Source of the DNA: Hyaloscypha bicolor E
Lineage: Eukaryota; Ascomycota; Leotiomycetes; Helotiales; Hyaloscyphaceae
Reading direction: 5' to 3'
Length of the DNA: 64,000 nt
Assembly: GCF_002865645.1 (NCBI RefSeq)
Contig: NW_020194549.1
Location: 393,021 to 457,020 of the forward strand
Part shown: positions 14,853 through 28,469 of the stretch, piece by piece
Position numbering within the stretch: the first letter of the stretch is position 1
How the letters are laid out: each line of letters opens with the position of its first letter
The notes under the pieces: generated by a model
What the model was told of the DNA's origin: nothing
The model's database searches: none
What the model saw: only the letters and a program-made list of their open reading frames with translations
Position numbers and translations under genes: made by a program

Positions 14853-15677
14853 TCACTCATCCGGAAGGTAGAGGTCGTACTCTCCCTCGGTGAAATCATC
14901 CTGGATCTTCTCGGCTTGCATTCCGTCCACGTCATATTCATCCAACTCGGCATCGAATTCGACTTCATGCTCGACGGGCTCATCATCGGTGCCGAAATAC
15001 GCTCCGTGCTCTTCATCCGTCGCCGTCACCTTGTCGTCCTTTAGCTCCAGCTTCTGCACCTTGAAGGCGAGCAAGGTCGGCCCGTCGTCCTCCCAGTCAA
15101 TCTTCAGCGTTCGCTTCTTAGACCGCTTGCCGCTGGGGCCGAACGAGACCCCATTGGCGTTGATGCCCAGGCTCGCCTCGTTCTCTCCGTCCTTGATGTC
15201 GGCTGACTTGAAGACAATGCCCGACGCCACCACAATACCTGTGATGAGGAAAGCGCATGGTTCTGAGCCGTCCTTGAGGATGTCCATGATAGGCTTTTGC
15301 GCCTGTAGTCCTGCGAGGAAGTCTGGAGTCGGCTCGAAGGCCTTGAAGGTCATGCTCTTGATCTCGTAGCGCTCCGAGACATCGGTCCCGGACGAGTGGG
15401 AGATATTGGCGCCGATACCGAAGAAGTCAAGAATCTTGGCAAAGAGGCCATACTTGGAAGACTTGGCGTCGACTTTCTCGATGTTGTACTTCTTAAGCGT
15501 CTTTGGAGAGGGTAACTCTCCGAGTGCAAGAGGTGGGACAGCCTTGTCTGGCCGGAAGAGCACCACGTCGGGTCGTTTTACTTGATAGATGACATTTCCA
15601 AGCTGGACTGTGGAATTGTAATTCTTCTTCTCGTCCGGCACAAGGAAGAAAGACGGCGGAGCTTTTGTTGATGGCAT
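14853..15677 (-). CDS. Gasdermin-like pore-forming protein (HET-Q1-like)
   Basis: Intronless, 274 aa. The start is the ATG at 15677 (A at -3); the frame stays open 35 codons further upstream but without an ATG. In sequence order: a beta-hairpin-like start (residues 20-43); a Gly/Ser-rich segment ending in an amphipathic strand pair (84-116); a helix with KPIMDIL (128-134); strands FLITGIVVASGIVF (143-156); a basic stretch (182-192); then a strand pair ending LLAFKVQKLELK (202-213). This order, especially the AFxVxxLxLK strand closing the N domain, fits gasdermin N domains. The last ~60 residues (214-274) are strongly acidic and would be the short autoinhibitory tail. Fungal gasdermins such as Podospora HET-Q1 are of similar length (about 280 aa) and kill cells by membrane permeabilisation once a protease trims the tail. 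Phe228 and Phe241 lie where such a cut would fall. The protease gene upstream on the same strand supports the call. Family assignment is inference; an unrelated fungal beta-rich protein is the alternative. Confidence 0.68.
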   Translation of the reverse strand: MPSTKAPPSFFLVPDEKKNYNSTVQLGNVIYQVKRPDVVLFRPDKAVPPLALGELPSPKTLKKYNIEKVDAKSSKYGLFAKILDFFGIGANISHSSGTDVSERYEIKSMTFKAFEPTPDFLAGLQAQKPIMDILKDGSEPCAFLITGIVVASGIVFKSADIKDGENEASLGINANGVSFGPSGKRSKKRTLKIDWEDDGPTLLAFKVQKLELKDDKVTATDEEHGAYFGTDDEPVEHEVEFDAELDEYDVDGMQAEKIQDDFTEGEYDLYLPDE

Positions 15678-16384
15678 TATGATTATCTTCAAACAAGCTG
15701 TGGAGGAGGCCTGTTCTCGTTGGACGTTCGATGTCTTAGGTGTCCTGAGAGTGAAATATGCCGCACGGTCGAAGCATAGCAATCGGGCTTATGATCATAC
15801 CAAAATCCGCGAATGATCCATCATCTATATGAGCCTGGTGTCCATTCGGCTAACTGGAAAGGGTCTAGGTTTTTGACTTCAACTTGCATTGTGCAGAAAA
15901 GTTGCATATGGCTTCTCCAATCACTGGCCAAGCGCTGGATCCATCCCAGCCAGCGGCCAAGAAATAATTTACTCAGTGGACAGCCACACTTACTACATGC
16001 ACAGCTTGCCGCATAAACTAGCCACGTATAGCTGCATCTCGCGTAAAGTAACCCCAAGGAAACAAACAGCCAAAGAGCCTCAAGGCAACGCATCCATCCT
16101 ACCCTGGACCCACTATGCCACAAATTATAGTGACTGCCTACCAGAAGACAAACACTATGGGAGGAGCTATACTTGGAACTATAGTATGCTTGGGACTTGG
16201 GACTGCACCGACTAAACCGCACCCCTGACTCACTAACACTCTATGAGGCAGACTGTGAAATTTCTTTATAACCTTGTTTAAACGGTAATATTGCAGGTGA
16301 CATTAAGAACGCAAGTAACTGCGGGTTGTGTATCGAGTACTTCTCTTTCTCGACAACAGAGCGTGCAAGGTCTTCCTTGACATA
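15678..16384. promoter_or_regulatory. Upstream region of the gasdermin-like gene
   Basis: Base-balanced 0.7 kb between the start codon and the transposon. Frames up to 133 codons are open on both strands (15813-16222) but resemble no family and overlap each other, so they are not called. Before the transposon inserted, this region plus 19896-20032 formed a single spacer of about 0.84 kb after the protease gene. It presumably holds the promoter; no specific element was recognised. Confidence 0.45.
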
Positions 16385-16412
16385 CAGTCGGTCCGATCCA
16401 AAAGCGACAAAA
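16385..16412 (+). repeat. Left terminal inverted repeat
   Basis: 28 bp beginning CAGTCGGTCCGATCC, an exact reverse complement of 19866-19893, and preceded by TA. Confidence 0.92.
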
Positions 16413-17271
16413 CGGTCGCTATTTTACGCCCATAATAACTTTTTAACTATAACCCTAATTAATTCTTACTAAGTAATGTAATTATAGAATAGAATCAGGC
16501 AAAAAATACCTATTAATTAGATTTTTAATATAATTTGTAGTTTATTAATAATCGAGGCTTAAAGTAAATAGACCCTTTTTACTTTTTTGATTTTTCCCTA
16601 TATAAAACACAAATATATTTGCTTGCTAAGATTATATAAGCCCGGGCTTTAGAAAAAGATTATAGTATCTTACTAGCTTTATTATTAATATAATAATAAT
16701 AATTAAGCCTTATAAGCTCAAGTAAGCCTTTCTAAATACTAAATATAGCTTTTTCTAATATTATATATATTATATATATAGTAGGGCCCTAATTATATAG
16801 GTTTCAAGCTAATTTTTAGCTAAACTAAATCTATAAACCTTATTTATTACTTAGCTACTTTCTTTCTCTTACTTTTATATATTATTTTATTTATTTATTA
16901 CTTTTTTAAATATTATTCTATAGTATTTTTGCTTCTATATATACTAAATAGATTATTTAATACTTAATTTCTTCTAATATATATTTATCTAGTAAAATAT
17001 ATAATTATAAAACCTCTATATAATCTTAATTAAATAAGCTTTAAGTATCTCTATTACCTTAATCTTAGTATCTAGAAAGCTAGTCTTTTTTACTTAATAA
17101 TATCGAGTTTTACTATATCCCTAATATATTTTAATTAGATTAATTTTATAATAGAACTTTAGTAAAAATATAGCCTTATATTTCTAATCTATAATAAGCT
17201 TTTTAATTTGGGACTTCTTTTTAAAGAAGTTTTAGTAATTCGATAATATATAAGCTAAATAGTATATTTAT

Positions 17272-17575
17272 TATAATATAGTAGGCTATATTCTCTAAAA
17301 ATTATATTATTTTAGCGGTTTTAAGATTTTAATTATATAATAAAAGCTATAGCCTTTTATATATAACTTATAGAAATTATATAAGAAAGCTGGTTTTTCT
17401 ATAATTCTAGAGAATAATTTCTTTTTAGTATTTAATTAATTAAGCTTTTATATACTATATACTATTTATACTTTACTATTTATATTTTTAATCTTATTAT
17501 TTTACTATTAAGTTATATTTTATACTCTAGTATACTTTATATAGGTTTTTGTTTTATTATAGTTTCTTTCTTATA
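17272..17575 (+). repeat. Solo LTR of the Gypsy E family
   Basis: 304 bp, similar over its whole length to the LTRs of element E at 29258-29546 and 49899-50235. Shared marks are TTATTTTAGCGGTTTT, the A/T-rich TATTTATACTTTAC units and the ending TTATTATAGTTTC. It is flanked by the 4-bp direct repeat TTAT (17268-17271 and 17576-17579). No internal region is attached, so it is a recombination remnant that inserted into the DNA transposon. Confidence 0.8.
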
Positions 17576-19865
17576 TTATTTAATAATAGGAAAGTATTTA
17601 AGAAATATAGTATATTTAGTATTCTTTAGATACTTAAATCTTAAGCCAGAGATATTATAATCTTATTTAATAAGAATCTATTCTATACTTTTAGGCTTTC
17701 TTTCTCTATTTAAATTAAATTACTAAAATACTTAAATAATATCTTATAATCCCGGAATTATATATTCTAATAAAAAGTATATATCTCTTTTATAAGCCTT
17801 AATATTATTCTTTTTAATTCTTTCTAATTCCTTATTTATATAAAAAATATTTAGTATATCTTTACTATATAAAGTATATATAAAAAATTAATTAAATATT
17901 AGAATAGCTATATAATTTAGGTACTTCTATTTAAATATATTAAGTATTCTAGTAATCTATACTAGTAGCTATTTTATATTCTACTAGGGATCTCTATTTA
18001 AGCCTAAATATATAATTTAATAGATATTTAAATTAGAATTATCTAAAATAAAAATACCTTTATTATTTAGTACTCTAATATATCTCTTAAAGCCTATAAA
18101 TTCAAAATTATAAATTAGCTTTCTTTTACTCTTTCCGGGCATTTTTTACTAATTATTTACTAGCTAGAGACTCTTTTTATAATTAAATCTATAGAAATAG
18201 CTCTTATTATAAAAATATATTATATATATCTAAACTTTAATTAGAAGTAAAAATTAAATTATATACTATATACTAGTTTTATTTCTCTTATATTAAACTA
18301 TATATAATAAAACCTCCTTTATTAAGAATAAAAATATCTCTTAATAATACTTAATTATATTAGATTATTTATATTTATTTATATAAAGCCCTTTCTTAGT
18401 TTTATAGTAATAAAAGCCGAGTTTAGAAAGCTATAAATAAGCTATACTATAAATAATAGTCTTTTCTATTATTAATAATAATAAAGGTAAAATCTTCTAA
18501 TTAATAGTATTTAGGAAATTATTTAATAATATTATTTCAAACTCTTAATTAATTAATTAAGTATAACAGGCTAAAAAAATATTTCTATTATCTAAATGAG
18601 AGATAATCTTTCTTTTACTATCTCTAGTTTCTTATAGAATATTATACTACTATTAATAGTAATTAAATAGCTTTTTAATTTACTAAACTAATATCTTTCT
18701 ATTATTTAAATAGTAATTACTAGAAGCTACTAAAAGTAATATATTAATTCTTTTAAGTTAATATTATTCTAGCTTTAGAAGCTATTAAATATATTACTAA
18801 AATAAGTATAAGTTAGTAATTATATATAAAATATATAGTTCTTTAATTTAAACTAGCTTAATATTTATATTATTAAGAACTTCTTAATAAGTTATTTATA
18901 TATTTAGAGCTTTATTATCTCTATAAGTATTTCTAATAAAAGTATCTAAAAGTAGCTTATTTATTTTATTATTTTTATCTTTAAGCCTTTACTTTTTCCT
19001 TAATTATATATCTCTAGAAATATTAATTAATTCTCTAATAATATTAAATTATAGCTTCTTTTATTTAAAAAATAATATAATTATAGAAGTTTTAAGCCTA
19101 CTAGATTACTTTATAACTTAATATCTTTTACTCTCTAATTATATATATATATTTATTAAGTTCTTAATAGCTTTACTAATTCCTTTATTAATTTGGGAAT
19201 ATATAAGCCTCTAGAAGCTAGAAATAATATTAGTATACTTATATTATAATATAAAAATAAGAAAATAAGATAAGAAACTTACTAGCCTATTCTATAAGTC
19301 TTTACTCTTATTATATAAATATAGGCTTCTTTAAAATAATTATCTTATTACTACTAATAATAAGCTTTTATTAAGCCTAAAAGAGAGTCGAATCTTTAAG
19401 CTCTATTTTATTATTTTATTTAATATCTGATTTATTAGAATCGTCCTCTATATTAGAGGGTTTCCTATATTATTTATTAATAAATACTTAAATTATAGCT
19501 TCTTTAGCTATAGTAAGAACTATAATTGAATTAAGAGTCGAATTAGCTTGCTTATATTTCTAAAGGCCTATAGAGATAGCTATTAGAAGTATATAAAAGG
19601 GGTACTGAATTGGGTTTATAGTTATTAAGATATTAATATAATTATAGAAGAGCAGTCAATTAAGGGGGGCAGTCACGTGACAACCAAAGTAAAAAACGAT
19701 TATATAAAAAGCAAAAATATTTACTCGCTTAATTACGTGCATTATAACTTCCTTAATAATAAAGATATTATAATTTTGAGAACATAGAATTAATTCCTAT
19801 AGTATATAGTATAGTTTTAATTAATACGATTTATATTAATTAGTATTGTAGTGGGTTTTATTTTT

Positions 19866-19893
19866 TTTTGTCGCTTTTGGATCGGACCGACTG
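19866..19893 (-). repeat. Right terminal inverted repeat
   Basis: 28 bp ending GGATCGGACCGACTG and followed by TA. Exact inverted match to 16385-16412. Confidence 0.92.
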
Positions 19894-20032
19894 TATTCTT
19901 CTAGGCCTTGCTCATTCAAGCGACGAATACCGACAGGGGACGCGATGCTATTGTGTTTCAGGTACCTGAATATTCTATACTTAGGAACTGTGAATCAAGA
20001 AATCGATTACTCTGAGCTGCTTATTTCCGACT

Positions 20033-23000
20033 TCAGGCATAACCAATGCGGCGCTTGATTGCGTCGCCGATATCTTTCTTGGTGTTATACCCATTCCGCG
20101 CAAGATGCCACGGTGCCAGGTAGGTGAAATCTTCACTGTCCCCTTTCATACACATGAGATGAAGAACGCCTCTCATCCCTTTGAAAGATGAAATATGCCT
20201 CCACTTATAGTCATCTAGATTTAGGTTCCGCCGCGCAAACTCTATTATGTTGCCCGCAATTGCAGCGGCAATTGGAGCCGCATATGAGGTTCCGGTCAGC
20301 CACACTTTCTCTCCTTTCCATTCCGATTCAATGGCGACTCCCAGGGTCGCAAAGGGCGGTAGCTTGTCAGGGTCTGCTTCGTTGTGCGTGGAGTACTTCG
20401 GAGCGAATTTTCCATCAAACCCAAATCCATTCACAGAATAAACACAAAAGACGCCGTACTTGCAAGCCGGGAATGCTAGTGGGAAGTTGTAGCCCCAGTT
20501 GGATGCCGCAGCAAAGACGACCCTAGGTCTAGTGTTTTCGTTTCCTTCTTCTGGATTGATAGCGTCTTCAAGTTCAGCATCAATCACGGGGATGTCTCTC
20601 TTGAACCCCAAGGAGAGAGAGATTATGTCTGCATCCTCCTTGACTGCCCACCGGATAGCCTACATTGGAAAGATTAGATCTGTAGAGCTAAATAGGCCCT
20701 CCTTCGAGCCTTACCTGAGCTATCTTCAGTGAATCTCCTTCCTTGAACTCTTTATCCTCCGAGACCTTGGCCACCATGATGTCTGCTGTCTTGTTGACCT
20801 GGAGAACTAATCGCACAAGATGCGTGCCATGGCCACAGGAGTCGCTGAAATCATTAGGGTTAGACCCAACCCAGCTTTGCCCCTTGATTCTTCCATTGAC
20901 ATGCTCTGGCAGTATGAGGGGATCAGAAAGGTCTACACCGGTATCGATCAAAGCAATCTTTATTTTCCGGATCTTTTCAGGCTCCTCTTTAGATTTAGGG
21001 GCGATGATTTGGCGCCGCAGTTTCGGTAAATGTGTCTTATTGAACTCCCTTATTAGCTCCCAGTAGTCATTAGCCCACTTGGCTAGTCTGTAATAGTATT
21101 CAGGTTAAATGGAATATTGTGATGCTTTTGCAGGGTCACTTACCTCTTATTCTCACCTTCCAGCTCAGTATTTTCTATTTCGAAGAACTGCCACGGTTCT
21201 TGAGAATTTAGATGAACTGTATCGTTTGGACCGTCTAGACCAGCAAACCACCGCGACATGTGGTAGTTTGGTGTTGCTTTCGTCATATCTAGAGAGTTGT
21301 CCCCTTGATTGTCGCCAGACATGTACTGCTGGGATTTACTAATCTTACTTGGTGCCGAGTTTTGATAGTGGTGGACTTCACTGACTGAGGAGCTAGAGCT
21401 CGAGCTGGATTGAGGAGGCACAGAGAAAACAGCAGATGCTGAGGAAGTGTTGTCTCTCGATCCACTCCCCTGAGAGTTAGAGGTCCGAGGAGAATTTCTA
21501 GGTCTGATTGAGAACAGATAAGAATGTTTCGACGTATCCTGAATCGTCTTTTGGCCTCCGTGGTGGTCCACCTTCGAAGTCGTTGTCTTCGCTGCTGTAG
21601 GAATACTTGTGGAAGGTACCACAAGCTTCTCGACCACATCCTTGATGTATCTTCTGTCCCACTCGCACCACTCCCCAGGATCTCCAGTTAACTCCTCTGC
21701 CTCAAATTTTATCTTGCGAACCTTGTGGAACCTGAGACACGCGTCGATTGCATCGCCGTACTCGAGATGACCCTTAGAGTTTTTGTAAATTCCCGATAAA
21801 AGTAACCAGACGGTCTCCTTTGTATCTTTCTTCAACTCCTCTTCAATATGGCTGTCCAAACTTCCGCCAAGATCGATCTCTAATAGTAGCTTTCCAAGAA
21901 AGAGGAATACGGGTGGCTTTGTATTTGCAAGCTTTGATTCCCATTTAACATAGTCAGCAAGGTAGGGGCCAGCCGGAGAGCACGATATGAATGGTCCAAC
22001 AGGTATGTCTGATTCACTTTGGCCATCTTCATCGGCGAGAAAGAGCATGTCTTTGGCGCACCATCCTTTCCCAACCCATTCCGAGCCCAGTAGACGACAG
22101 AGGGAGGAGGCGATACTTGTGGCAAGAGTCCTCTTCTGGCCTCTACTAAATCGATTCGAGGTCATGCTATTAAGATCGAACCCCTTGAAAGCCCCGCTCT
22201 CAAGTAAGGTGTGGAGAGACTTCCTAGGAAATTTGTTACTGTGGAGTGTAGTTTGTGTTGCTTGTGAGAGATTCTGAATCTGGTCCCCAGTCACATGTAA
22301 ATGCAACCCCTCTCGGTCTGACTGGGAGTCTTTAATCTTGCTACAAAGGTCCATATTTCGTACTGTTCGAGGGCCAACGTCGAGATTTCTTGGGTTGATC
22401 AATTAACGCTAAGCACTTTCTCGGTGGGTTCTTGCTGAGGGACACAGAAAAAGCAACTTACTCGCGCTTGCCACATTGCGTCTCTTGCCAGTCGCAATGA
22501 TCAGGGCAGACAGAAATAAACATATCCAGCAATATCTTCGGTGCACAGTCACTACTATCGTGTTGCTTAGGGAGATAAAGCATGAGCTTGTGTTCCGTTT
22601 GGCAGTGCTGGAGGTGACTGAAAATGGCGCCAAAAGCCGACGTTGCATAGTCTCGTATACTGGAATCTTGAATTTCGACGGAATCGGACGACTCCAAAGC
22701 CGCTGGAATCGATTTGGTCTGCTGGGGGAGTGGTACTGAGTCGAGAAAGTGGTTGAGATCCAGAACTGTCTCCAGGTTGGCTGCAACCGAATCGTCTGGT
22801 GGCAGATTAAATGCAGGGCCCAAAGGGCCGTTTATGAGGTTGAAAGGCACTCGTGACGTTTCTAGGAGTTCTAGCAGCGCCCAGAGCCTCTTGTACTTGG
22901 TGTCATGACTGAAAAGATGTCCAAACTTGTTATCGGGCTCTTGTCCCGTGAACTTTTGGTTATGACTTGGGTTCACCAGTGACTCAAGCAGTAAAATGAC

Positions 23001-23234
23001 TTTCACCAGCTTTTCTTCGCAGGTAGCAATCCTTTCGGGAGGTATATCACAAGGCAATCTGGGCCGAACAAAGACTCTGGTCAGTTCAAAGTCGAAATTT
23101 TCCTTTGAGTTACCAATGAGGATAGCAGCCTCGTCCAGACAATCAAAATCCTCAACTGTCTCAGGCAGGGTGAATATCAAGTAGCCACTAAGGGCACTGA
23201 TAATTCGCCATGCTAAGATGCTGTTTAGGGACAT
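20033..23234 (-). CDS. Intracellular subtilisin-like protease with DUF7580-like N region (HET-Q2-like)
   Basis: Four exons: 23234-22462, 22388-21144, 21087-20715, 20659-20033. All introns are GT-AG (73, 56 and 55 nt) and keep frame, giving 1005 aa. The start is the first ATG in the open frame; no signal peptide is evident, so the protein is probably cytosolic. Residues 1-257 are largely helical. About 259-515 resemble fungal DUF7580 (SEWVGKGWCAKDMLFL at 360-375, then LGKLLLEIDLG). Residues 563-598 form a Ser-rich linker with eight consecutive Ser. The S8 domain starts near 713 and keeps the full catalytic set: Asp721 in LIDTGVD, His759 in CGHGTH, oxyanion Asn851 in AAASN, and Ser922 in GTSYAAP. 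There is no inhibitor-type prodomain; the N region probably senses or regulates. In Podospora the comparable HET-Q2 protease cuts the gasdermin-like HET-Q1, and here the gasdermin-like gene lies downstream on the same strand. Protease activity is well supported by the residues; substrate and role are inferred. Confidence 0.9.
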
Positions 23235-23857
23235 GTCAGACCAAGGTCGCAAAGTCGAAGGCGAGGGCGAGGGCGAGGAGCGAGAGCTGTGAGACTTTGA
23301 ACAAATTACCCGATTCTGTAACTATTGGAGATGGGAGATATTTCAGTCTCGGCCCGCGACCGAAAGGTGCTTGCGGGATGGCGGGGCAGGAATAAGCGGC
23401 ATTGCACGCACCAGCGCCATTGAATGCATGCCAATTGGTGGCTGAGTCGGCTGAGATACTTTTGCTTTTGCACAGGGAGGACTCCACCACCAGTTGGCAG
23501 AGACTTTAGCCTATCAATCGCTGAGGTGATGGCGAGCCGGGCAACGCCATGCAGCAGCTGAAAGTTTTACTTCGAGGCACCCACTGTAGGGTTGTTGTGT
23601 TCATAGATGATTCGTTGGATCTCTCATCATCACGTGTGTGGCTTTTGTCTGCAGCAGAAGGACCTTGACCTGCCTCTTTGCTCTTCGAAGCAGGCAATTG
23701 AGGTTGTGCAACTATCACACAATCATTCAAGCAGATAAGACACTTTAGAGGAAGGTCCCGATTCGAAACAGTAGTGCCATATCTGTTGAGGAGCTTACTA
23801 TTCCTGCTTGTCTCAGTACACCCACAAGGCTCAGGCCGAAAATTCCGGCGCCAGGAA
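23235..23857. promoter_or_regulatory. Shared divergent promoter region
   Basis: 623 bp between the two divergently oriented start codons, so the protease and the kinase/GTPase genes may be co-regulated. It contains a GAGGGC-type short repeat near 23260-23280 and one CACGTG (23631-23636), a common bHLH-type site; its use is unproven. Minus-strand frames at 23236-23490 and 23506-23730 were not accepted as exons. A start codon upstream of those chosen cannot be fully excluded. Confidence 0.5.
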
Positions 23858-26800
23858 ATGCTTAATTTATCGGATTTAAGACAAGATGTCCCCCAAGCTC
23901 CAACCCCGCCTCAGCGAGCGGAGCTCTATATATTTTCAGTGGCAACTGATTGCTGGGAATCCTTTGCCAACCTTCTTGCTGAGCTAGACAACAACGTGCC
24001 CCTGACATGGCGTCTTGTCACTGAGTATCAGCAAAGATACGAAGCCTGGATCGGCTTCCTCGGAGTCTTTGCCGATGGGAATCTCAGCCTTGACCACAGG
24101 CTTAGGAATAGTGCTGAGGTCAAGAGTCTTGTGATACAGCAGCTTCATTTAGCTAAGAAAAACCTAGTCGCAGGTACGTTTAATATACCTGTTGGTGGTC
24201 ATGTGGCATGCTCAGCGCTCGTTGCCAATAACCTTCGAACGTAGCATTTGAACTTGTCAAGAAAAAGACAGCGGACGATGATCCCGCCACTCATCTGGTC
24301 GAGGAGAACCACAATGTTCGTCTCTCACCGCCTCTGAAAGCTACCTTCAACGGGGTTGAAGGCGCTCTCGATCGGCTTCATCGGCTGGGAGTGGCAATAC
24401 GCCAAGCTTCAGCTGGGCAGCTTATGTCCCGAATCAAACCTTTCGACCAGGATGAACGAGTGGGTTCATTTGAGATGTTGGCCTACTCTCTCCTGGAGAG
24501 CCTATACCCCAGCACTAATCCTCGGCTTTTGGAGCATGTGAGTGCATCATTGTCCCAGAAGTACAAGGTGTTTCTGTACCTGCAAGAACGTGGCACACAG
24601 TATCGTCCGTCTCCCGGGCGTTTTAAACCGAGAACGATCCAGGTGCAGTCAGGTTCAGAGGTAGACAGTCAGAAAAAAATCGAAGCAAGTTCTTCGACCA
24701 ACCCCAAGCCAGAGACTCATCAGCGACCAGGCTACTTCCGAAAGTATATCCAGCCGTCTGTAAGATCATCCGCCTTCGATGAGGACGAGTTTATGAGGAA
24801 GCAGTCGCAGACGACTCCGATTCTGGAACAATCTGCCCCACCAACAACGTCGGTCGCAAAAGGCCTTGCTGGCTACCTTCCCCTTCAGGCCGTCCCCGAT
24901 AAGGCCATGTATGCAGACTGTGAGTGGTGTCGCGAGAATCAGCTAGCTAAGGTGTTTACTACACCATCTCTGTGGAAGTATGCTCAAACCGAACGAATTG
25001 AAATCCTCGACTTCAGATGGGACTTACTAACAATTCTTCCCAGAGAACACGTGAAAAGGGATTGGAAACCTTATGTGTGTATCGCTGAGGACTGTGCCAA
25101 GCTTCATCCAGTTCCCAGCTTTGCGGGATCTAGACAGTGGGAAAGGCACATGAGGAAGACACATTCAGCAAGGTGGTCCCGAACAATATACAAGCAGCCA
25201 ACATGGATCTGTGACATCGATTCCAAACCCCCGGCCGGACATATAAAAACTCTTCGCTTTGCCACGGAATTGGAATTTTTGGAGCACATCCAAGAGTCTC
25301 ACGGGCCTTTCACTTCTCAACAACTGCAGACCATGGCCCATCAGAGTATAGTCTTTCTCAACCGAGCTGAAGATATCTGTCCGTTCTGTTGTTTTCTAAT
25401 CGAAGACGATAGCAGCCCCGAGGAAGCCAAAGCCGGAAAGAGAAATGATCCCAACCTCGGCAAGGATTTACATGACATACCCGAAGAATCCACGGATTCA
25501 GATGAACAGGATCCAGACATGAAACCCGAGTTGTCGGCTTCAAAACGGATGGCCAAGCATGTTGCACGTCATATGCAGACCTTCACATTTCTTGTGGTTC
25601 GACTTCTCTCTTTGCCCAAAAGTACGGAAAAAGAGAAAAAAGAAGAAGAAAATAATGATTCAGTCACTTTTGCTGATACCAACCCATCGGAAGCTGTCCA
25701 CTCCGACTATCAAAAATGGGCCAAGGAGGACTTACCACCTGATTTACCATTACCACATCAAATTATACGAAAGTACGTCGACAGCAAGTTTGATCCCGAA
25801 GTGAAACGGTTTCTGCCTGCGAGCTGTATGGATGAACTGATAACGTCGGATACCGTCATTAAAGAAATATTTGGGAAAGACGAATTGGCACCTGAAGATT
25901 TAGATCTGCGAGAGGGGCCAACGATATCAGAACTTGTTGGATTCGTGCTCTCAAAAGCAAAGAAGGTGTTTGCGATCACTATTCTCAGTGGTCTCCGTGG
26001 TAAGGAAATAGAGAGGGCGGTATTCACTTTCATGAGGGCAGACTTCACCGATAGCTCCCTACCCGTTAAAGAAAAGAGCGCAGAGGAAGATATTGGGTGC
26101 TTCCGCGATACAGTCTGGTCGAAAGTGCGGATCCACAACTTTTGTCGAGAGCAATGGAGCTTTTTGGCACCGATCTTTCCTCAACAGAACTTCGTAATCG
26201 ATCTCGAACCAGAGCATATTCTGCCCTTCACTGAGAGGAGCAGCGCATTGAAAGAGGGAGCCTTTTCCCAGGTTTTCCAGGTGGAGCTTCACCGTGCTCA
26301 TTGTAAGGATCCATACTTGAATGTAAGATCTCTCGAAACCTCAATCATTTCTTCCTACTTCAAATGGTCGAGCACTTACATAGAAAATTTATTCAGGGCA
26401 AGGGCAATCTTGCCAAATTTGCCATTAAGCAATTCATGCCTCCCCCGGATTCCAAATTGGAAGACGACATTGATTGGATCTGGGAGCCCGAAGTCATGCT
26501 GTTGGAGGAAATACGTGGCCTAAGTCACCCGAATCTTACTCAAGGTATTGCTGCAATAAGAAGAGGCAGAGAACGCTATGTAATGTTTCCATGGGCAGAC
26601 GGTGGTAATTTGCGAGATTTATGGATCGATAACCCGGAACCAAAGGTCACAGCAGGTCTAGTCCGTGACATTATTGAGCAACTTTTGGGGATGGCCGAGG
26701 CATTAATGCGATTACATTTTTGGACAGACCAGCCTCATGTTCGTCATGGAAACATCAAGCCAGAAAATATCTTAGTCTTTCCGACAGGAGACAAGTCATG

Positions 26801-28469
26801 CATAGGAACCTTAGAGCTATCCGATGTGGGGTCAGTCCGAGATCATTCTGCTCGCACTCAACTTCGATCACGAAATTCAGGAAATTCTTATGGGACTGTG
26901 AAGTACGAGCCACCGGAGTCTGTTACCAAGAAACTATCTCCAAGGTCTAGGCTGTCTGACATTTGGTCCATGGGATGCGTTACTGTAGAATTTATGGTAT
27001 GGCTTCTGTATGGCTATGAAGAACTCAAAGAGTTCAATGCACACATCAGTGGAAAGCTAGAGGAGCCAAGCCGTTTCTTTGTGGTCGACCAGATAGAGGA
27101 CCAAGGGCAGCAAGGCACCTTTCCACAACTCGTTGCCAACGTTCACCCTGCTGTCCAAGCTTGTATTGATCATATGTCAAAGGACAAAGAGTGTGTAGGA
27201 GAGACGGCATTAGGAGATCTCCTTAATATTGTCAAAACGAAACTTCTAGTTGTCGAACTCCCCAATCAAACAGTATCGGCCACCGCAATGATGGAAAATC
27301 CTTCTGTCACGATAACCAATTATAGCTCCAAAGAACCGAGATTTGGACGGGTTCGCGCAAATGCTTCACAACTCGTGCATGCACTGGAAGAAATCATGCA
27401 ACGTGGGATTGCATCTAACGAGCGCTACTGGCTCACAGGTCATGATCGAGATAATGTCCGCCTTCCTCGAGTAACTTTGAGAAATATTACCAAAGGAAGA
27501 TCTTATTACTTATCTCCTGAACGGACGCTAGAACAGCACATTCCGGGTCAATTTGACCCCCTTGTTGATGAAAATGGACTTAACGAACAAGGAGAGCGAG
27601 AGGTTGTGATTGCCGTTATGGGAGTCACAGGGGCTGGAAAAAGCTATCTAATACGTCAGGTAACAGGACAGGATGTTGTGGTTGGCGATGGGATAGCGGC
27701 GTGTAAGTCCCCCAATAAAAATATTGCGTCCCTTGCTACTCCCAAAATCTGACGGAACAATATAGCTACCCAGAATGTTTTTGGAGTCCGAGTAAAGTAC
27801 AGGGGAGTCAAGTTGACCATGATCGACTCTCCTGGGTTCGACAATACCTACCGCACTGATACCGAAGTACTCTCTGATATCTCGACATATTTGTCTCGAA
27901 CATATAGCCAAGGATTCAAACTCTCTGGCATCATATACCTACACCCCATCTCTCAAGCAAGAATGGACGACTCTTCACTGCGAAGTCTTCGCATGCTCAG
28001 GGAACTGGTTGGAGATTATGCCTTGGGAAATGTGGTTCTTGCCACGTCACACTGGAGCAGAGTCTCGTCCGAAGAAGGAATTAGACGGGAGACCGAACTC
28101 AAGAACACTTTCTGGAAAGATCTTATCAGTCGAGGTGCTATCATGACTAGATACTCTGGAGACCAGAGATCCGGCAACGCGCTCATAGACTTGCTCATCG
28201 ATAAACGCCGGATTGTTCTCCACATCCAGCGTGAGCTGGTCGATGAAGGCAAGAAGCTCATCGAAACGACTGCAGGCCACGTCCTTAACGAAGAAATAAT
28301 CAAGCTGCAAAAGAAACATGAAGAGGAATTGAAGAAATTAAAAGAAGAAATGGATGCAGCAATGAGAAATCGTGACAAGAATGCCCAGGAAGAACTAGCA
28401 GAATTGAAGAAGGAACTGGAGCGCCAAATCGATTTGACGAAGAGAGAGCGAGAGAATGTTAAAGAGTAG
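23858..28469 (+). CDS. C2H2 zinc finger / kinase-like / AIG1-type GTPase / coiled-coil fusion
   Basis: Four exons: 23858-24173, 24245-26322, 26397-27702, 27766-28469. GT-AG introns of 71, 74 and 63 nt join in frame to 1467 aa. The frame before 23858 has only a GTG, so the ATG at 23858 was chosen. Domains in order: an N-terminal helical region with the SLDHRLR motif common in fungal signalling proteins (1-160); Cys/His fingers (C331/C334; C384/C389/H407/H412; C484/C487; HVARH at 544-548); a protein kinase-like domain with a GAFSQVFQV loop (777-785), Lys809 in AIK, HGNIKPEN (915-922), DVG (941-943) and PPE (970-972); a GTPase with P-loop GVTGAGKS (1207-1214) and DSPGF (1254-1258), closest to AIG1/GIMAP-like P-loop proteins; and a Lys/Glu-rich coiled coil (about 1395-1467). 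The catalytic HRD Asp is Asn917, so the kinase may be inactive. Likely role is signal sensing or scaffolding next to the protease; the substrate is unknown. An annotation split into two or three genes is the alternative, but the clean in-phase introns favour one. Confidence 0.85.

Follow-up and report, generated by a model that had tools for sequence, protein, structure and literature searches.

A predicted sensor-protease and gasdermin gene pair as a candidate cell-death unit in Hyaloscypha bicolor E

The 64,000-nucleotide stretch of the Hyaloscypha bicolor E genome analysed here (assembly GCF_002865645.1, contig NW_020194549.1, forward-strand positions 393,021 to 457,020; hereafter the window) carries, on the same strand, genes for a predicted gasdermin of 274 residues and a predicted subtilisin-like protease of 1005 residues. 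We consider it very probable that these two genes form a self-contained pyroptosis-like cell-death unit, in which a latent sensor-protease would cut the gasdermin and the freed pore would kill. An earlier inspection of the letters alone, referred to below as the sequence-only reading, had placed a gasdermin/subtilisin pair at positions 14853-23234, and these bounds proved to be exact.

By homology and predicted fold, the 274-residue protein is a fungal gasdermin. Its open reading frame (ORF; 15677-14853, minus strand) is as the sequence-only reading had described it, including the acidic tail and the closing AFxVxxLxLK strand, which reads AFKVQKLELK at residues 204-213; the pore-forming domain spans approximately residues 8-213. 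A profile built from 28 sequences of the family gave five matches in the PDB at E≤10, all of them HET-Q1 or RCD-1, the best being the HET-Q1 pore (9uv9_A, E = 7.7e-6), with RCD-1-2 (8jyz_B) at E = 5.3e-4. A paralog from the same genome, on the contig that we label C73, retrieved HET-Q1 even as a single query (E = 5.8e-6). When the predicted model was used for fold searches, the top 29 Foldseek rows and the top 24 VIA rows were all gasdermin entries. The gasdermin-like strand order, originally a guess, is thus borne out by the profile and by the structural comparison that had been proposed as its check, the model itself being of moderate confidence.

As judged from its spliced sequence, the protease is a DUF7580 domain joined to an intact S8 subtilisin domain. 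The gene (23234-20033, minus strand) consists of four exons separated by three GT..AG introns (73, 56 and 55 nt), and their removal gives exactly 1005 residues and reproduces the catalytic residues named previously, with Asp721 in DTG at 721, His759 in HGT at 759, Asn851 in AASN at 848 and Ser922 in GTSYA at 920. These four residues are identical in 9/9 homologs compared, and the S8 domain can be aligned throughout in all nine linked homologs. Past intron 2, the predicted protein resembles eight of the nine linked homologs by eye (the P0032 model is without that stretch); because these eight run on similarly and all nine align through S8, the 1005-residue splice is supported. A fold search with the homolog P0031 (mean predicted local distance difference test score (pLDDT) of the model, 52.3) was filled by subtilisins, in agreement with an S8 fold, and was uninformative on the DUF7580 part. 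A kinase-like fold was considered for DUF7580, and an hhalign comparison with the window's own kinase piece found nothing; given this null result and the subtilisin-filled fold search, no kinase likeness is claimed. The name DUF7580 was not met in the literature searched. Just N-terminal to S8 lies a further motif (F639/E643 in P0031, approximately F661/E664 in the window), in which the F is invariant in 12 rows and the E is present in at least 90%; in intracellular subtilisins, this position is presumably occupied by a pro-segment with inhibitory function (see the titles of 6f9m and 2x8j).

The pairing of the two genes recurs in other fungi. Linkage across species was judged from the species name and an equal size of the longest contig, together with gene numbers. 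For 8 of the 13 species-named gasdermin homologs, a protease homolog of the same species lies on a contig of equal size, and in five of these eight species the gene numbers differ by only one or two (Gaeumannomyces RB595_003680/003681, Xylaria multiplex g10693/g10694, Chaetomidium 32425/32424, Conoideocrella 000503/000505 and Xylaria arbuscula 310972/310974). In a ninth species, Cylindrodendrum hubeiense, a single predicted protein (P0039) runs from protease into gasdermin with the order and strand seen in the window; this may be a genuine fusion or two genes merged in the annotation. Viewed from the other side, 9/11 non-self protease homologs are linked to a gasdermin.

Paralogous pairs exist in the host genome itself, as revealed by searches of the 82.0-Mb assembly. 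The number of gasdermin-like loci found, self included, depended on the query: two with the window protein, six with the C73 paralog, and three and four with two other queries. Five of the six loci lie <6 kb from a DUF7580-S8 gene, namely the window (C17), two on C73, and one each on C70 and C67. By tblastn, five of the 20 DUF7580 loci carry an S8 similar to that of the window, and it is these five that also have a gasdermin match; at the sensitivity used, neither a window-like S8 nor a gasdermin was found in the ~10 kb covered at each of the other 15, one of which (C4) has a separate S8 Pfam match 3.2 kb upstream. The C70 gasdermin contains an in-frame stop or an intron. On C67 (1-10000), the gasdermin was matched as a fragment only (E = 9.4e-4) and the DUF7580 match has three stops, and this pair looks decayed. 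As linkage recurs across species and among paralogs, chance adjacency was ruled out. Therefore, as far as sequence can tell, the pairing is real, and the proposal that the two genes belong together stands.

The sixth gasdermin-like gene, C38:287605-289900 (+), has no S8 or DUF7580 hit beside it. A single frame leads from the gasdermin-like domain through an acidic linker to the start of a patatin-like phospholipase (CLDGGGVRG), and pieces downstream contain GTSTGG and a Patatin match (PF01734, E = 7.1e-9). From its sequence the gene looks like a gasdermin-patatin fusion, an arrangement not met in the excerpts of the fungal gasdermin literature that were searched.

The alignment of the window gasdermin with 44 relatives contains ten invariant columns. 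Among these columns are G225 and F228 (the same residue in 45/45 sequences, the window included), which lie C-terminal to the last pore-domain strand, within a linker (residues 216-235) that is modelled at pLDDT <50. The corresponding motif, G-A-x-[F/L], occurs once per stretch in the window protein (GAYF) and in the three other readable S8-paired gasdermins (GALL, GALF and GATF), in these four always 21-23 residues downstream of the point where the last core strand begins; the protease set, taken as a background, contains five occurrences over 11,449 residues. The C38 gasdermin, for which the hits include no neighbouring S8, does not have the motif, and the fragment on C67 ends short of the region. 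The segment behind the motif, residues 229-274, comprises 46 residues and 5.36 kDa, with 20 D/E and a single K/R, and short strands are predicted in it at 238-243, 253-259 and 266-272. GAYF is thus a likely cut site, at which cleavage would release 5.4 kDa. HET-Q1 is cut at F238 of 278 residues and loses ~5 kDa (PMC10989679, PMC12881547; these articles, and PMC10197012 below, are cited from excerpts).

We propose the following course of events. The 1005-residue protein would act as a latent intracellular sensor-protease, whose N-terminal region and DUF7580 domain would sense a trigger and restrain the C-terminal S8 domain; latency is suggested by the presence of both genes in a single genome and by the large size of the N-terminal part. 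On the trigger, S8 would cut the flexible linker of the gasdermin, most likely after F228 of GAYF, and strip off the acidic tail of 46 residues. The liberated pore-forming part (approximately residues 1-228) would then oligomerise in the plasma membrane and kill the hyphal compartment. If so, the two genes would be a functional effector/activator pair, a point that the sequence-only reading had overstated.

Several observations weigh against this interpretation. The lone 274-residue protein gave no Pfam match at E≤1, and its sole match in the PDB was RCD-1-2 at E = 0.78; because single-sequence evidence for a gasdermin is weak, the alignment was required. The gasdermin was modelled with moderate confidence (mean pLDDT 63.7), and the model's Foldseek query template modelling scores to RCD-1 are 0.25-0.38 with a large root mean square deviation. 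In the cross-species comparison, 5/13 named gasdermins (Nemania, Leptodophora, H. variabilis, Neocucurbitaria and Apodospora) have no linked protease among the 7991 candidates scored at E≤1e-20, and 2/11 non-self proteases (P0036 and P0041) have no linked gasdermin match; the five unlinked gasdermins are not evidence of absence, as only these 7991 protease candidates were scored. The S8 of the C70 pair was detected by tblastn only, and its S8 pieces gave no Pfam match. The deposited protease model of H. bicolor E (P0030, K444DRAFT_316875) is identical to ours over the first 674 residues, to the end of exon 2, but then runs off frame and stops at 697 residues without an S8 domain, probably because it uses another acceptor for intron 2. 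In the window, a 3.5-kb transposon splits the pair. Finally, the core strand starts ~33 residues before F238 in HET-Q1 (provided that chain 9uv9_A is counted from residue 1) and 24 residues before F228 here; therefore, the likeness to HET-Q1 lies in residue type and fragment size and not in an aligned site.

Three other explanations have to be weighed. Incompatibility of the het-Q1/het-Q2 type, in which protease and gasdermin of different strains meet at hyphal fusion and kill the fusion cell, appears improbable to us, although among solved structures HET-Q1 stands nearest to the gasdermin family and the protease belongs to S8, the same enzyme family as HET-Q2. Here both genes are found together in one genome, as in the other linked species, so that an unregulated protease should be suicidal, and HET-Q2, with 388 residues, would be too short for an N-terminal part such as that of the window protease (PMC10989679). 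Slightly less probable again is a gasdermin of the RCD-1 type, which would be activated without cleavage by a divergent allele while the protease acts on some other target. RCD-1 is indeed the best fold match, but conservation of the tail together with invariant linker residues, and the repeated linkage to a single protease type, argue against this reading.

We give the lowest probability to a relic pair, in which the protease would be made without its catalytic domain or the gasdermin promoter would be silenced by the transposon. Such decay would fit the deposited 697-residue P0030, which ends after DUF7580 and before S8, and the transposon, whose end lies 706 bp upstream of the gasdermin start. 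However, the reading frame of S8 is uninterrupted and retains the four catalytic residues, the sequence after intron 2 is like that of 8/9 linked homologs by eye, and neither gene has a composition of the type left by repeat-induced point mutation (RIP). Because the two genes share one genome, we favour a latent sensor-protease/gasdermin pathway over a het-Q idiomorph system.

Table 1. Positions within the window of the gene pair, its parts and the neighbouring features.
Feature	Position	Strand	Basis
Fungal gasdermin gene, single exon, 274 residues	14853..15677	-	ORF; profile against PDB; Foldseek/VIA
Linker motif GAYF, residues 225-228; predicted cut after F228	14994..15005	-	Conservation; low pLDDT; motif in three other S8-paired gasdermins
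Acidic C-terminal tail, residues 229-274 plus stop; putative inhibitory segment	14853..14993	-	Composition, mass, predicted strands
Protease exon 1: N-terminal region plus beginning of DUF7580	22462..23234	-	ORF, splicing
Protease exon 2: bulk of DUF7580 (residues 189-480 after joining of the exons) and variable linker	21144..22388	-	PF24476, E = 1.1e-58
Protease exon 3: first S8 part with D721 and H759	20715..21087	-	ORF, splicing, Pfam
Protease exon 4: remaining S8 with N851, S922 and stop codon	20033..20659	-	PF00082, residues 714-944, E = 2e-15
Degenerate AT-rich DNA transposon, 19% GC; terminal inverted repeats bordered by TA	16384..19894	.	Inverted repeats, composition, related copies
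Third gene, divergent; ORF pieces, start and exons unsettled; possible partner	23702..28469	+	C2H2-like fingers by eye, protein kinase, P-loop GTPase-like part

The gap between gasdermin and protease genes is 4355 bp (within 10 kb), or 844 bp after subtraction of the transposon. The element is bounded by a perfect 31-nt inverted repeat (16382-16412 and 19866-19896, TA included), and its RIP-type index is 0.26, compared with 1.17 and 1.28 in the gasdermin and protease genes. Its repeat end occurs 175 times genome-wide at ≤3 mismatches (reversed control, 0), and among the 40 of 1593 candidates that were scored the long matches are 77-91% identical. No empty insertion site of the element was seen. 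As the element is a degraded repeat and only 844 bp are left without it, a dead DNA transposon has most likely separated a normal tandem pair. This RIP-degraded element still has perfect terminal repeats around an AT-rich interior, and the repeat-end pairs listed are often ~3.2, 1.1 or 0.6 kb apart.

Head-to-head with the protease gene lies a third gene, in which Pfam recognised a protein kinase domain (PF00069, E = 2.9e-17) and, by weak matches below the cut-off, a P-loop GTPase-like part. A genome search with its N-terminal piece gave five matches at E≤0.01, self included (E = 0.008 for the weakest), each of which stands head-to-head with a DUF7580 gene, with 1.0-1.7 kb between match ends. 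Three are gasdermin loci (C17 and the two on C73); near the other two (C54 and C56), neither S8 nor gasdermin was found, and the gasdermin loci C70 and C67 gave no match to the piece. A search restricted to DUF7580 loci added a sixth, weaker match at C16. The third gene thus appears to track DUF7580 and not the gasdermin, given that no S8 or gasdermin was found at C54 and C56, and no match to the piece at C70 and C67. The large middle piece has 16 genome matches, mostly away from DUF7580 genes, which counts against a partnership and indicates that it belongs to a wider family. On C67, a GTPase-like ORF resembling the third gene lies ~2 kb beyond the S8 part. It is a tentative idea, more doubtful than not, that the locus is a three-gene module, in which a DUF7580 sensor-protease would cut the gasdermin at G-A-x-[F/L] and the head-to-head kinase/GTPase gene would take part in sensing or control. 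If so, DUF7580 would be a sensor chassis of fungal immunity, often accompanied by a divergent partner and swapping its output domains.

The window gasdermin shares 61-74% identity with copies from Xylaria, Gaeumannomyces and Cylindrodendrum, and 55% with the copy of its congener Hyaloscypha variabilis. In a tree of 40 rows (P0001, P0021, P0029 and P0054-P0057 omitted), it groups in a clade of 17 rows (100/99) together with copies from Xylaria, Nemania, Gaeumannomyces, Conoideocrella, Chaetomidium and Cylindrodendrum and with unnamed rows, and H. variabilis and Leptodophora fall in a separate five-row clade (99/98). Both transfer and old paralogs with loss fit this pattern.

Our analysis adds a complete predicted sensor-protease/gasdermin unit from a Hyaloscypha genome, and the invariant linker residues provide a concrete prediction of the place at which this gasdermin family would be cut; both this linker motif and the head-to-head third gene may be new. 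The activating stimuli of such proteases are a major open question (PMC12881547), and the head-to-head link of some DUF7580 genes with a kinase/GTPase gene may offer a lead on protease activation.

Gene pairs for cell suicide are known to be common in fungi, and the present pair is a further instance. Fungal gasdermins clustered with Q2-L (HET-Q2-like) proteases were reportedly described by Clave et al. in 2022, as cited in three reviews. According to excerpts of PMC12881547, PMC10989679 and PMC10197012, ~80% of fungal gasdermin genes are clustered with proteases, some of whose protease domains are fused to predicted kinase-like domains; two-gene clusters of gasdermin and S8 protease being already described there as usual, the 'new sequence context' claimed by the sequence-only reading was an overstatement. 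Its label 'HET-Q1/HET-Q2-like' likewise goes too far in the incompatibility sense. The likeness to the Podospora anserina system lies in a gasdermin of similar length (278 residues in HET-Q1, 274 here), an S8 protease and, by prediction only in our case, a P1 Phe and the removal of ~5 kDa (PMC10989679). By contrast, het-Q1 and het-Q2 are idiomorphs and HET-Q2 has 388 residues, whereas here both genes coexist in one genome and the protease has 1005 residues, with DUF7580 in its large N-terminal part. The Neurospora crassa pair RCD-1-1/RCD-1-2 differs in being controlled by the meeting of two alleles and not by proteolysis (PMC12881547), while bacterial gasdermins resemble the proposed unit in having a dedicated activating protease and a short inhibitory C terminus (PMC10989679). 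The closest resemblance is to the Q2-L/fungal gasdermin clusters, in which the protease domain is of the S8 or CHAT type and, as here, a short gasdermin with a small C-terminal tail can lie beside a multidomain S8 protease; the window likewise has an intact protease active site in a gene <10 kb from the gasdermin, and differs in its DUF7580 subfamily, in the transposon that splits the pair and in the conserved linker motif as the proposed cut site.

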